42,640 nucleotides of DNA from assembly GCA_945862935.1 (NCBI GenBank), contig CAMBBO010000003.1, positions 1-42,640 on the forward strand, read 5' to 3'. Position numbers and translations under genes: made by a program. The notes beneath the pieces were generated by a model. The model did no database searches. It saw only the letters and a program-made list of their open reading frames with translations, and was not told the origin of the DNA. The stretch is from Pseudorhodoplanes sinuspersici (lineage in GTDB: Bacteria; Pseudomonadota; Alphaproteobacteria; Rhizobiales; Xanthobacteraceae). Every line of letters begins with the position of its first letter. Position 1 is the first letter of the stretch. Positions 2-40,529 of this stretch are shown here, in pieces.

Positions 2-205
2 CGCGGCGCGGTCGAGGTCAGCGACGACGAACGGCTGGTGGCACAACTCGGCGGGTGGCTCCGCAACGGCGAGGCGCGGCAACAAAGCGCGCAAGCCGGT
101 ATCAAGACCGTGACGCGGCTTGGTGGCGCACTGGAGCGAACGCTGCTGCAACTCCAGCCTTACCTGATGCAATTGCATATCAACTTGCGGCCGGGCGATG
201 CGTGA
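2..205 (+). CDS. waaA: 3-deoxy-D-manno-octulosonic-acid (Kdo) transferase, C-terminal fragment (5' truncated by window)
   Basis: Open frame from base 2 (RGAVEVSDDERLVAQLGGWLRNGEARQQSAQAGIKTV...NLRPGDA*) to TGA at 203-205, overlapping the lpxK start by 8 nt; resembles the WaaA C-terminus, and waaA-lpxK adjacency is common in alphaproteobacteria. Confidence 0.7.
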   Translation, partial: RGAVEVSDDERLVAQLGGWLRNGEARQQSAQAGIKTVTRLGGALERTLLQLQPYLMQLHINLRPGDA

Positions 206-1205
206 TCCCGATTTCTGGTGGGAGGATCGCTCCCTCGCGGCTCTGCTGCTGCGGCCTGCAGCCTTTTTCTACGGCGCGATCGCAGCAAACCGAATGCGCC
301 GGACAGGCAAGCGCGCAAATGTGCCGGTGATTTGTCTCGGCAATTTCACGCTTGGCGGCGCCGGCAAAACGCCAGCCGCCATCGCGGTCGCAAAGCTGCT
401 CGGCGATATGGGCGAGCGTCCTTATTTTCTTACGCGCGGCTATGGCGGCACGCTGTCCGGCCCGGTGCAGGTCGATCCGGCAAAACATGGCGCGCGGGAT
501 GTGGGCGACGAGCCCCTTTTGCTTGCGCGCCACGCACCGGTGATTGTCGCGCATGATCGCGCGGCGGGCGCTGGTTTCGCGGAAAGCCGCGGTGCGAGCG
601 CTATCGTGATGGATGACGGCTTGCAAAATCCGGCGCTGCAAAAAGATATTGTCATCGCGGTTGTCGATACGCGGCGGGGCATCGGCAATGCCAATGTCTT
701 TCCGGCGGGTCCCTTGCGCGCGCCACTCAACGCACAACTCGGCCTTGTCGATGCATTGCTCTGGATCGGTGAGCGGCCGCAGCGCGCGGCGGGCGTGATC
801 GAGAAAGCGCGTTCGCGCAACATTGCCGTGCTTCAAGCGCAACTGAAGCTCGACACAGCCGCGATCAAGGCGCTGGGACGCAAAAAGGTTCTTGCCTTTG
901 CAGGGATTGGCGACCCGGAGAAATTCTTCGCAGCGTTATCGGCAGCCGATATCGAAGCCGCCGTCGAGGAAAGCTTCCCCGACCATCATCCCTACAGCGC
1001 CGACGATGCGCGGCGGCTACTCGCCCGCTGCGACGAGCGCGGGTTGATTCCGGTGACGACAGAAAAAGATTTCGTGCGGCTCGCCGGAAGCAGCGAACTC
1101 AAAACGCTCGCGGCGCGGGCGAAAGCACTCCCGGCCAATCTCGAATTCAAGGATGAAAGCGCCGTGCGGAAATTGCTCGAAAAGGCGCGCACGCGGCGCA
1201 AGTAA
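198..1205 (+). CDS. lpxK: tetraacyldisaccharide 4'-kinase
   Basis: 335 aa; P-loop-like GNFTLGGAGKTPAAIAVAKLL, FLTRGYGG, DEPLLLARHAPVIVAHDR, VMDDGLQNPALQKD, TTEKDFVRL: characteristic LpxK motifs. Confidence 0.95.
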   Translation: MRDPDFWWEDRSLAALLLRPAAFFYGAIAANRMRRTGKRANVPVICLGNFTLGGAGKTPAAIAVAKLLGDMGERPYFLTRGYGGTLSGPVQVDPAKHGARDVGDEPLLLARHAPVIVAHDRAAGAGFAESRGASAIVMDDGLQNPALQKDIVIAVVDTRRGIGNANVFPAGPLRAPLNAQLGLVDALLWIGERPQRAAGVIEKARSRNIAVLQAQLKLDTAAIKALGRKKVLAFAGIGDPEKFFAALSAADIEAAVEESFPDHHPYSADDARRLLARCDERGLIPVTTEKDFVRLAGSSELKTLAARAKALPANLEFKDESAVRKLLEKARTRRK

Positions 1206-29565: not shown

Positions 29566-31116
29566 TTGGCAAAGCCTGCGACGCATAAGCCCCAGCGGAG
29601 CGGGGTTCCCGCATCCATTTCGAGCTGGATCGCGGACAATCCCTGCAACACCTTCGGGGTGTTCGCGATCCTGCATTTGCTGGTCTGGACCGCGCTCCCG
29701 AGCCTCCTCTACCCGAACCTGCCGCTCGACCTGATCGAGGCGCTGACCTATGGGCGCGAATGGCAACTTGGCTATGACAAGCTGCCGCCGTTGCCGTGGT
29801 GGCTGATCGAGATCGTGTACCGGGTGGCGGGGCACGACTTCGCCTATTACGCGCTGGCGCAGGTCGCGGTGCTTGCAGGCTTCGCGCTGGTCTGGGCGAT
29901 GGCGCGGCCAGTCGTAGGCCCGCAGGGGGCGCTCGCCTCCGTGCTCATTCTCGATGGGCTGCACTATTTCAATTACACCGCAGCGAAGTTCAACCATGAC
30001 GTGATCCAGCTTCCGTTCTGGGCACTTGCGGGATTTTCGCTTCATCGCGCGCTGCGCGGCGGTGGCCTCGTCTATTGGTGCCTGCTGGGCGCCGGGATCG
30101 GCGGGGCGCTGTGGGCGAAATACTTTGTGGCGATGCTCGCAATCCCGATTGCGCTCTTTCTCCTGCTCGACGCGGACGCACGAAAATCGCTCCTCACACC
30201 CGGCCCGTGGATCGCAGCACTTGTTGCACTCGCAATCATGGCGCCGCATTTGTGGTGGCTCGTCACCAACGATTTTCTTCCCTTCGCCTATGCGGCGGCG
30301 CGCGCAACACCCGCACGCGGAATCTTCGATCACATCTTGCATCCACTGACGTTCGCTGCGGGACAGGCGGGATTTCTTGTTCCCGCATTGCTGATCGCGC
30401 TGCCACTGTTCTGGCCGCGCGTGAAAATGAGCAAAGAAGCGAACGCAAAATCTTTCGATTTCCGCATCATCACGCTGCTCGCCTTCGGTCCAGCCGCTGC
30501 GGTCATCGCGCTTTCCGCATTGAGCGGGCGCGGCACAATTGCAATGTGGGGTTATCCGCTCTGGCTGTTCCTCGGATTGTGGATCGTGATGCTTGCGCAG
30601 CGCGCGACGCGGCAAAAACGATTGCCGCGCATCGCAGCAACCTGGGCGATTGTGTTCGCAGTGATGGCGGGCGCATTCATCGTCAATTACGCGGTGCTGC
30701 CGCGTTTCGATCATCGCTATCGCGCCGCGTTCTTTCCCGGCGAGGCGATGGCCCGCGAAATCTCGCAACGCTATCGCGCGGTGGCGCAGCGTCCGCTCAC
30801 TTACGTCATCAGTTCAATGTGGGAGGGCGGCAATGTCGGACATTACGCGCCGGAACGTCCGCGCGTTCTGATCGACGGACGGCCTGTGCGTGCGCCATGG
30901 ATCGACCTTGCGGACCTTCGCAGCAAGGGTGCTGTGATCGTGTGGACTGATGGCGATCTGAAAACGCTGCCGCTCGCCTACCGGCAATTCTCCGACCGCG
31001 CCGTGGTGCAGGAGCCGTTCGAGGTTCCGTTCCGCAGAGGCGAGCGCACACTGAGTGTTGGCTGGGCGGTGTTGCCGCCGCAGCCGAGTTTTGCAGCGAT
31101 TACGCCAGCGCCTTGA
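29566..31116 (+). CDS. GT39 (ArnT/RgtA-like) polyprenyl-phosphate-sugar glycosyltransferase, multi-TM
   Basis: 516 aa, TTG start; EALTYGREWQLGYDKLPPLPWWLIEI, LILDGLHYFNYTAAKFNHDVIQLPFWALAGFSLHRAL, multiple TM helices and C-terminal soluble domain. Confidence 0.85.
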   Translation: MAKPATHKPQRSGVPASISSWIADNPCNTFGVFAILHLLVWTALPSLLYPNLPLDLIEALTYGREWQLGYDKLPPLPWWLIEIVYRVAGHDFAYYALAQVAVLAGFALVWAMARPVVGPQGALASVLILDGLHYFNYTAAKFNHDVIQLPFWALAGFSLHRALRGGGLVYWCLLGAGIGGALWAKYFVAMLAIPIALFLLLDADARKSLLTPGPWIAALVALAIMAPHLWWLVTNDFLPFAYAAARATPARGIFDHILHPLTFAAGQAGFLVPALLIALPLFWPRVKMSKEANAKSFDFRIITLLAFGPAAAVIALSALSGRGTIAMWGYPLWLFLGLWIVMLAQRATRQKRLPRIAATWAIVFAVMAGAFIVNYAVLPRFDHRYRAAFFPGEAMAREISQRYRAVAQRPLTYVISSMWEGGNVGHYAPERPRVLIDGRPVRAPWIDLADLRSKGAVIVWTDGDLKTLPLAYRQFSDRAVVQEPFEVPFRRGERTLSVGWAVLPPQPSFAAITPAP

Positions 31117-38026: not shown

Positions 38027-38539
38027 TTACCGGCGCGGACGGAACACGACGAAGTGCGACATCGAGAAATTGACGACGAAACCCGCGCCGATGGCGAGAA
38101 TTTTCGCGGCGACCACCGGCAAAAATCGCGACCCAATCAGGACCGTCGCGGTGTTGGCGATCCATCCGAGTACGCCTGAAGCAGCGAATGTGAGGTAAGC
38201 GCGCCATGTGAGCTTGCGCCCGGATTCGACGGCGAAAGTGACGTAGGAATTCATAACGTAAGAGCCGCTGACCGCGACCAGCCATGCAACGCCATTGGCT
38301 ATCACCAGCGCGATGTCGCCATCGGCAAATCCGGTGGACCGCGACAGCCCGGCAATTGCAGCCGTCACGCCCGGCACCGGGATGAGATGGCGCAGGGTCA
38401 GCAGGAACACGCCAAGATCGACCAGCGCATTCAGCACGCCAATCACGGCGAAGCTGACGGCCTTGAGGAGGAAAGCCTGCTTCCGGATGGCAGCAAGGCC
38501 GCGCCCGGCGAGGCTTTGTGACGTTGGGCTATTGTTCAT
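38027..38539 (-). CDS. GtrA family polyprenyl-linked sugar translocase-like membrane protein
   Basis: 170 aa, four predicted TM segments; FAVIGVLNALVDLGVFLLTL, NGVAWLVAVSGSYVMNSYVTFA, ILAIGAGFVVNFSMSHFVVFRPRR. Confidence 0.88.
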   Translation of the reverse strand: MNNSPTSQSLAGRGLAAIRKQAFLLKAVSFAVIGVLNALVDLGVFLLTLRHLIPVPGVTAAIAGLSRSTGFADGDIALVIANGVAWLVAVSGSYVMNSYVTFAVESGRKLTWRAYLTFAASGVLGWIANTATVLIGSRFLPVVAAKILAIGAGFVVNFSMSHFVVFRPRR

Positions 38540-38646
38540 CGCGGGCCTGTTAGCACGTCTCCCGGCGCCCGCCGAGGCTTTCCGGGGAATGGCGCTCGTG
38601 GGACAGCGCAGGGCTGTTGCGCTATAGATCGCGGCAAACAGGACGA

Positions 38647-39696
38647 ATGGTTGTGACCGGGAATACGGGGAAATTAGGTGGCCAAGCTGGTGGCGCGAAA
38701 ACGGGCGCAGCCGCCGGGCTGTCGGTCGTCGTGCCGTGCTTCAATGAAGCTGCGGGCCTGCCGGCTTTTCATCAGCGCCTGACGGACGCGCTGAAATCCG
38801 TCCGTGCCGCTCGCGGACTGAACAGCGAGATCGTCTATGTCGATGACGGCTCGCGGGACGAGACCTATGCCATCGCGAGCGCCCTGCCAGCCAACGGCAT
38901 CGACGTTCAGGTGATCGCGCTGTCGCGCAATTTCGGCAAGGAAGCCGCCCTGATGGCCGGGCTGCATCATGCCCGCAACGGCGCGGTCCTTTTCATGGAC
39001 GGCGACGGCCAGCATCCTCCGCAACTCATCGACACACTCGTGGAGCATTGGCTCGAGCGCGGCTATGACGTGGTTTACACCGCAAAGGCGCATCGTGACT
39101 CCGAGTCATGGCTGCGGCGTCTCGGCGTCAAATATTTCTACAAGCTCATCAACTGGCGCGCGCGCCAGGAAATACCGGAGGATGCCGGCGATTTCCGCCT
39201 GGTGTCGCCGCGCGCAGCGAACGCACTCCGTCAGCTTCCTGAGCGCAATCGCTTCTTCAAGGGGCTGGCAAGCTGGATCGGCTTCAAGCAGGTGCGGGTC
39301 GATTACGAGCCTGCGCCGCGCGCGCATGGCGCTTCGACATGGAATATGTCGTCGCTCATCGGACTATCGATCGAAGGACTGACGTCGTTCTCGGTCGCGC
39401 CGCTGCGGATCGCGAGCCTGCTCGGGCTCGTCATGGCAGGCGTCGCGCTCGTGTTCGGCGCATCAATCCTCTGGGAAACGGTGTTCTACGGAAAATCCGT
39501 ACCCGGCTATCCCTCCCTCGCGGTCGGCCTGATGGTGCTCGGCGGCGTGCAACTCATCATGATCGGCGTGGTCGGCGAATATGTCGGAAAGATTCTTTCC
39601 GAGCAGAAAGCGCGGCCGGTTTATTTCGTGGCCGAGCAAAGTCTGAAAAAAGCGGATGAAACGTCCGCCCCGACGCGGCAGACCGCAGCGGAATGA
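38647..39696 (+). CDS. DPM1-type family 2 glycosyltransferase (polyprenyl-phosphate sugar synthase)
   Basis: LSVVVPCFNEAAGLPAFHQRL, VYVDDGSRDETYAI, ALSRNFGKEAALMAGLHHARNGAVLFMDGDGQHPPQLID, DAGDFRLVSPRAANALRQLPERNRFFKGLASWIGFKQ, two C-terminal TM helices. Confidence 0.93.
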   Translation: MVVTGNTGKLGGQAGGAKTGAAAGLSVVVPCFNEAAGLPAFHQRLTDALKSVRAARGLNSEIVYVDDGSRDETYAIASALPANGIDVQVIALSRNFGKEAALMAGLHHARNGAVLFMDGDGQHPPQLIDTLVEHWLERGYDVVYTAKAHRDSESWLRRLGVKYFYKLINWRARQEIPEDAGDFRLVSPRAANALRQLPERNRFFKGLASWIGFKQVRVDYEPAPRAHGASTWNMSSLIGLSIEGLTSFSVAPLRIASLLGLVMAGVALVFGASILWETVFYGKSVPGYPSLAVGLMVLGGVQLIMIGVVGEYVGKILSEQKARPVYFVAEQSLKKADETSAPTRQTAAE

Positions 39697-40529
39697 CGGC
39701 CCTTCGACGCATTTTTTTGGTTGCTGACGATTACGGCATCTCGCCTGCGGTGAGTGCCGCGATCCGTGATCTCATCGCGCGCGGGCGGCTGAATGCAACG
39801 TCAGTTATGGTCGGCACTCCGAGCTTCGATCATTCCGAAGCCGTTTCGCTTTCAATGCTCAATGCGGCCGGCCCGCGCGTCGCCATCGGGTTGCATGTCA
39901 CGCTCACCGCGCCGTTCAAGCCGATGAGCGGCGATTATCGCCCGCTGAAAAACAATGCGTTCCTGCGTCTTGAGGATACCGGCGGCAGCGCGATGCTGCG
40001 CAAACTCGATCCGGCATCTCTTGCGCGCGAAGTCTCGGCGCAATTCGCAGCGTTCGCGCAGGCCTTCGGCCATCCGCCCGATTACGTTGACGGGCACCAG
40101 CACATGCATCTTTTTCCGCAAATCCGCGATGCCGTGCTGAACGCCACCAAGGACCACGCACCGAACGCCTGGATACGCCAATGCGGCCGCGTCACGCCGC
40201 TGCATAAGCGCATGTCCGATCCGAAGGGCATGTTCCTCGACTGGCTGAGCCGCGAATTCCGCCGTCGCGCGGCAAAGCTTGGCATCAAGACCAATCCGGC
40301 TTTCGCGGGTACCTATGACTTTGCCCCGCGCAGCGACTTCGCCGAATTGTTTCCCTCGTTCCTCGTCAACATGAGCGAAGGCGGCGTCGTCATGTGCCAT
40401 CCGGGGCACGTGGACGCAGAGCTACGTAGCCTCGATCCGGTCACCACTGCGCGCGAACGCGAATATGCCTATCTGGCAGGCGAGCTATTTCCCAAGCATC
40501 TGCAACAGCATGGGCTGACGCTTCGCTGA
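39693..40529 (+). CDS. ChbG/HpnK (YdjC) family carbohydrate deacetylase
   Basis: 278 aa; IFLVADDYGISPAVSAAIRDLIARGRLNATSVMVG, AIGLHVTLTAPF, PDYVDGHQHMHLFPQIRDAV, GGVVMCHPGHVDAEL; ATGA overlap with the upstream GT2. Confidence 0.93.
   Translation: MTALRRIFLVADDYGISPAVSAAIRDLIARGRLNATSVMVGTPSFDHSEAVSLSMLNAAGPRVAIGLHVTLTAPFKPMSGDYRPLKNNAFLRLEDTGGSAMLRKLDPASLAREVSAQFAAFAQAFGHPPDYVDGHQHMHLFPQIRDAVLNATKDHAPNAWIRQCGRVTPLHKRMSDPKGMFLDWLSREFRRRAAKLGIKTNPAFAGTYDFAPRSDFAELFPSFLVNMSEGGVVMCHPGHVDAELRSLDPVTTAREREYAYLAGELFPKHLQQHGLTLR

Follow-up and report, generated by a model that had tools for sequence, protein, structure and literature searches.

The FlmF2/NaxD/FlmK system of Francisella and the LgmA-C system of Bordetella both include an undecaprenyl phosphate N-acetylhexosamine (Und-P-HexNAc) synthase and a deacetylase. 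The closest characterised systems act on lipid A, as reported for NaxD of Acinetobacter baumannii (PMC10927774, PMC6635527), lgmA-C of Bordetella (PMC4993483) and the Francisella enzymes (PMC8149597). PmrA boxes have been reported upstream of naxD (PMC10927774), and a published data set (PMC9083411) shows joint up-regulation of the A. baumannii YdjC, GT2 and GT39 genes at neighbouring locus tags. CsbB, GtcA and YfhO form a described three-part system for GlcNAc (PMC8035078). At an A. baumannii locus (L234) we identified YdjC, GT2, GtrA and GT39 genes as one run, with two overlapping, tandem matches to the published PmrA-box consensus of the naxD promoter ~90-110 bases before YdjC. A looser pattern gave three matches, a count also reached in 5 of 200 shuffles; taken alone, the number of matches is only moderately above chance. 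On the strength of the PmrA boxes, which sit as reported for naxD, we equate this YdjC with NaxD.

The window studied here is the whole 42,640-nucleotide stretch of DNA, from contig C3 of a 3.0 Mb, 87% complete assembly of a soil/water bacterium, from the genus to which Pseudorhodoplanes belongs. The open reading frames that an earlier note on this DNA had placed at 38027-38539, 38617-39696 and 39693-40529 are all present; the same note overlooked the PMT_2 gene. The features are as follows.

38027-38539, minus strand: GtrA-family small membrane protein, 170 aa (open reading frame and PF04138)
38540-38646, no strand: divergent GtrA/GT2 intergenic region of 107 bp, presumed from the sequence to be a two-way promoter region
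38647-39696, plus strand: GtrB/CsbB/ArnC-type GT2, from the likelier start (359 aa when called from 38617)
39693-40529, plus strand: YdjC-family deacetylase, 278 aa (open reading frame and PF04794)
29566-31116, plus strand: PMT_2 (GT-C fold) membrane glycosyltransferase, 516 aa (PF13231)

The bases at 39693-39696 are ATGA, in which the start codon of YdjC (ATG) and the stop codon of GT2 (TGA) share two bases, in agreement with the translational coupling noted earlier. The GT2 frame can be opened with TTG at 38617, but ATG at 38647 is the likelier start, because AGGACGA lies in front of it and the similarity of relatives begins only near residue 28-36 of the longer frame. The trio is flanked by hisZ and hisG upstream (named from sequence and synteny) and by genes for a DUF2076 protein and a YkuD L,D-transpeptidase downstream. 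The first gene of the window (198-1205) resembles, by eye, lpxK, the lipid A 4'-kinase gene.

The minus-strand gene, correctly described before as a GtrA-type gene divergent from GT2-YdjC, matches GtrA_DPMS_TM (PF04138) at 58 bits (cut-off 26.1) and encodes four hydrophobic segments (~4 TM helices); its product is the presumed flippase of a polyprenyl phosphate sugar. The GT2 matches Glycos_transf_2 (PF00535) at 109 bits and carries two C-terminal TM helices. Among the NCBIfam models, PgfS matched over the full length with 252 bits (cut-off 500) and ArnC with 152 bits (cut-off 529). The best solved structure was Synechocystis GtrB sll0501 (5ekp, 1e-77), followed by ArnC (6e-39), whereas dolichol-P-mannose synthase reached merely 2e-12. 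The GT2 assignment of the earlier note is thus supported by PF00535 but its ‘DPM1-type’ label is not, as the TM helices and the structure ranking fit a GtrB/CsbB/PgfS/ArnC-type enzyme better. We regard the protein as a presumed polyprenyl phosphate N-acetylhexosamine synthase. More than one sugar is compatible with the GT2 family, glucose being possible for GtrB relatives. The window contains two parts of a multi-component transmembrane glycosylation system: a GT-A synthase that ends in TM helices, and a presumed flippase of the GtrA type.

The deacetylase belongs to the YdjC/ChbG family, as had been stated, with PF04794 covering 265 of 266 positions (173 bits). It has no TM helix and is cytoplasmic. 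It has the YdjC fold and the D-D, H, D-x-H-x-H and C-terminal H motifs of NaxD-type enzymes, and residues D12, D13, H68, D133, H135, H137 and H236 are conserved with NaxD. The folds nearest to its predicted model (pLDDT 92) are EF3048 (2i5i) and ChbG (7vi8). In a tree of 42 rows, a branch with support 98/97 places the window YdjC, A. baumannii NaxD and the GT2-linked YdjC proteins on one side and HpnK and ChbG on the other; as the root is unplaced, this split is a bipartition rather than a proven clade. Given this grouping, the model scores and the neighbourhood, which includes the ATGA overlap with a polyprenyl phosphate sugar GT2, the earlier proposal of a NaxD-like deacetylase is supported. 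The sequence evidence points to a presumed polyprenyl phosphate HexNAc deacetylase of the NaxD-containing group.

The gene order is conserved. Nearly all of 86 loci of relatives (L068-L153) have the order hisZ-hisG-GT2-YdjC-DUF2076-YkuD wherever the contig is long enough, with GtrA inserted divergently between hisG and GT2 in 25 of the 86 (Pseudolabrys, Rhodoplanes, Pseudorhodoplanes and their kin). YdjC identity across this conserved Xanthobacteraceae order, hisZ-hisG-(GtrA)-GT2-YdjC-DUF2076-YkuD, is 51-62%. As the order is kept in Xanthobacteraceae, the arrangement is not due to chance. GtrA is absent at the locus from Bradyrhizobium, Rhodopseudomonas, Tardiphaga and Afipia in this sample; three Bradyrhizobium-type genomes (G138, G242 and G034) have a single GtrA domain, located in a longer open frame adjoining a PMT_2 gene elsewhere.

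The linkage extends beyond the family. GT2 lies within ~0.5 kb of YdjC in 42 of 44 Hyphomicrobiales loci with this kind of YdjC; of the two loci that lack it there, L153 is a truncated contig. A further family of the order (f20) has the GtrA-GT2-YdjC trio too, with GtrA likewise divergent. Within 7 kb of YdjC, GtrA was present in 26 of 51 genomes, which represent 8 of 12 families and differing gene orders, and a YfhO-type GT-C in 16 of 51; the expected counts of 0.34 and 0.11, respectively, treat genomes as independent although they are related. YfhO-type proteins were assigned by Pfam PF09586 (of five hits, two exceeded the curated cut-off and three fell short of it) and by mutual protein similarity. 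A YfhO-type GT-C adjoins GT2-YdjC in three other Hyphomicrobiales families, and in one genome of the window's own family (G076) the genes GT2, PMT_2 and GtrA form a run that points away from YdjC. Of 13 loci sampled outside the order, 8 combine GT-C, GT2, GtrA and YdjC. GT39 and GT2-YdjC lie divergently in Variovorax, and Comamonas has a single GT2-GtrA-YdjC run.

Several related loci have features of their own. Four loci of family f40 (L184:5308-6141, L195:5244-6032, L196:4926-5714 and L199:5381-6178) encode a degenerate YdjC that has lost the D-D, H and DGHQH motifs. These proteins form their own group and are encoded directly downstream of PMT_2, with GT2 further upstream in three of the loci, and may be pseudo-deacetylases in glycosylation operons. 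In family f41 (L166:6220-7752, L176:5180-6715 and L049:5734-7308) the lipid II flippase gene murJ adjoins GT2, on the same strand with a 7-bp gap in L166. In family f20, a gene for an SbmA/BacA-like ABC transporter (L042:10443-12542) follows GT2-YdjC; BacA-like proteins handle antimicrobial peptides. One frame of 363 aa on contig C1 (L177:8817-9908) joins GT2 to a C-terminal GtrA domain, near genes that by eye appear to be ADP-heptose/LPS-core genes.

The module would need a GT-C transferase. No GT39 or other GT-C transferase was found within the window operon and the PMT_2 gene is ~7 kb from the trio; we therefore do not class the module as a complete lipid A modification operon. The PMT_2 protein matches PF13231 at 108.7 bits, and its sequence has no match among solved structures at E<=1. 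The best PDB fold match of its AF2 model (pLDDT 79) is ArnT with undecaprenyl phosphate (5f15, 3.9e-7, TM ~0.5). When the operonic GT-Cs of three distant GT2-YdjC loci (L259, L262 and L263) were compared with the PMT_2 proteins of the source genome, the window PMT_2 was the top match. Those of L264 and L265 instead matched a tandem PMT_2 pair on contig C140 better. Furthermore, in two genomes (G303 and G304, loci L148 and L149), PMT_2 is found ~9.8-11.5 kb upstream of YdjC together with a second, different GT2, between EAL and aminotransferase genes; the same slot in the window holds PMT_2 alone. This second GT2 (31-32% to the window GT2) may be the real partner of PMT_2. For these two reasons the window PMT_2 is proposed only as a candidate, albeit the strongest one that the window offers for the final transfer. 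We rejected it as a family-wide partner, as its close relatives (57-63%) are restricted to the genus. A YfhO-type partner in the source genome was also rejected, as none of the Xanthobacteraceae genomes tested gave a match. The type of GT-C differs between lineages (PMT_2, YfhO-type or ArnT/GT39-type).

We propose the following pathway. On the cytoplasmic face, the GT2 would transfer N-acetylhexosamine from UDP-HexNAc to polyprenyl phosphate, as its family suggests. The coupled YdjC enzyme, judging from its group and active site, would then remove the acetyl group to yield polyprenyl phosphate hexosamine, which GtrA would flip across the inner membrane. Finally, a GT-C, possibly PMT_2 (29566-31116) or one encoded elsewhere, would attach the sugar, with its positive charge, to an envelope glycan in the periplasm. 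This scheme, from the making of the lipid-linked hexosamine to its delivery to an envelope glycan, is the best explanation of the locus and we consider it probable; what the analysis shows directly is the identity of the genes, their conserved linkage and the group to which the deacetylase belongs. The synthesis, deacetylation and flipping had already been proposed in the earlier note, whose chemistry is largely upheld by the gene identities, the NaxD grouping and the matching set of genes in the naxD operon of A. baumannii; lipid A, the acceptor that it implied, is doubtful.

Transfer of the hexosamine to lipid A, leading to polymyxin resistance as in Francisella, Bordetella and Acinetobacter, is the alternative that survives best, and it would be in keeping with the acceptor of the closest characterised systems and with the ArnT-like fold of the PMT_2 model. 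Nevertheless, we consider it unlikely. Bradyrhizobium and Afipia, the latter being the genus in which Oligotropha carboxidovorans is now placed, carry GT2-YdjC loci. Yet the available text on Bradyrhizobium lipid A describes GalA and two Man (a mannose disaccharide), with no added hexosamine and none of the phosphates usually capped by such sugars (PMC6102379), and that on O. carboxidovorans describes two GalA and no added hexosamine (PMC7663294); this comparison involves strains other than those with the loci, relatives that lack GtrA, and a modification that may be conditional. In one study of A. baumannii, over-expressing naxD also did not suffice to make the cells resistant to colistin (PMC6635527). 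That relatives with GT2-YdjC have lipid A described, in the text available, as free of hexosamine argues against lipid A as a general acceptor. On present evidence the core, the capsule or another glycan is a more likely acceptor than the lipid A backbone.

Addition of GalA or Man to lipid A needs polyprenyl phosphate donors. The GT2 might therefore make polyprenyl phosphate uronic acid or mannose, as an RgtE-like enzyme, for the GalA and Man described on the lipid A of relatives, with YdjC as a bystander. This alternative, whose uronic acid form was also raised in the earlier note, is very unlikely, since such a pathway leaves nothing for a deacetylase to do. Moreover, the GT2-YdjC linkage spans many families and reaches the gamma- and betaproteobacteria, and the catalytic residues are intact, indicating that YdjC is not a bystander.

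The earlier note had also considered HpnK, a YdjC enzyme that deacetylates N-acetylglucosaminyl-bacteriohopanetetrol, and had suggested looking for an hpn cluster elsewhere. We found a squalene-hopene cyclase split over the ends of two contigs that resemble an hpn cluster, and hopanoids are therefore likely in this organism.

L155:7010-7903 and L156:5325-6401, at the ends of contigs C135 and C183: pieces of squalene-hopene cyclase, probably separated where the assembly breaks within an hpn cluster

The presence of the cyclase would favour HpnK, as would the finding of no second YdjC in the 87% complete assembly. However, the window YdjC scores 83.3 bits on the HpnK model (TIGR03473, cut-off 232.6), compared with 331-350 bits for four HpnK of the same order, and HpnK forms a separate tree group (support 100/100). 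The neighbours also differ: we found no GtrB-type GT2 near the HpnK loci of the order and no hpnI or hpnJ beside the window YdjC, which adjoins hisZ, hisG, GT2, DUF2076 and YkuD genes. The window GT2 itself scores 20.6 for HpnB (cut-off 379), with no HpnI model among the matches listed. The cut-off, tree and neighbours refute the HpnK reading at the family level. Equally improbable is a ChbG function, deacetylation of chitin oligosaccharides in sugar catabolism: the fold and active-site residues are the same, but the window YdjC scores 79.9 bits on NF002559 (cut-off 227) and falls outside the ChbG group, and ChbG neighbours are 6-phospho-beta-glucosidase and chbR genes and no GT2.

Returning to the lipid-linked hexosamine pathway, we tentatively suggest a broader reading, about as likely to fail as to hold, if not slightly more so. 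A NaxD-type module kept throughout Xanthobacteraceae, including Bradyrhizobium and Rhodopseudomonas, may decorate an acceptor other than lipid A with a positively charged amino sugar by means of lineage-specific, exchangeable GT-Cs (PMT_2, YfhO-type or ArnT-type). If so, plant symbionts and phototrophs would have an envelope modification not described so far; the lipid-linked amino sugar made by Bradyrhizobium, Rhodopseudomonas and their kin would have a destination that the published lipid A structures, as far as the available text gives them, do not show. Amino-sugar decoration usually blunts cationic peptides, which symbionts meet inside nodules. The two-gene operon beside hisG offers a direct genetic handle on envelope modification, and the common label ‘ChbG/HpnK family deacetylase’ is corrected for a large, separate group. 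In the literature we found nothing on ChbG with GtrA and lipid A in alphaproteobacteria, on the combination of GtrB, GtrA and a deacetylase, or on Bradyrhizobium lipid A glycosyltransferase genes.

Among the known systems, HpnK and ChbG share the YdjC superfamily fold and metal site with the window protein, but differ in tree group and neighbours, and the window protein falls below both curated cut-offs. The CsbB/GtcA(GtrA)/YfhO systems of Firmicutes likewise pair a GT-A synthase with a GtrA flippase, yet they add GlcNAc and have no deacetylase among their listed components (PMC8035078), whereas the window has YdjC and its family lacks YfhO. Francisella FlmF2/NaxD/FlmK and Bordetella LgmA-C, likened here by description, follow the same logic of Und-P-HexNAc synthase and deacetylase (PMC8149597, PMC4993483); their acceptor is lipid A, an unlikely one in the window's lineage. 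The A. baumannii naxD operon is similar in its YdjC (31.6% identity, with the same group and catalytic residues), its GT2 (42%) and its GtrA gene. It differs in that its GT39 is inside the operon and is not significantly similar to the PMT_2 of the window, its GtrA is part of the operon whereas the window GtrA is divergent and not co-transcribed, and its reported acceptor, lipid A, is doubtful in the window's lineage. Overall, we consider the module to be another case of the NaxD-type chemistry already known, with the proposed enzymology probably right.
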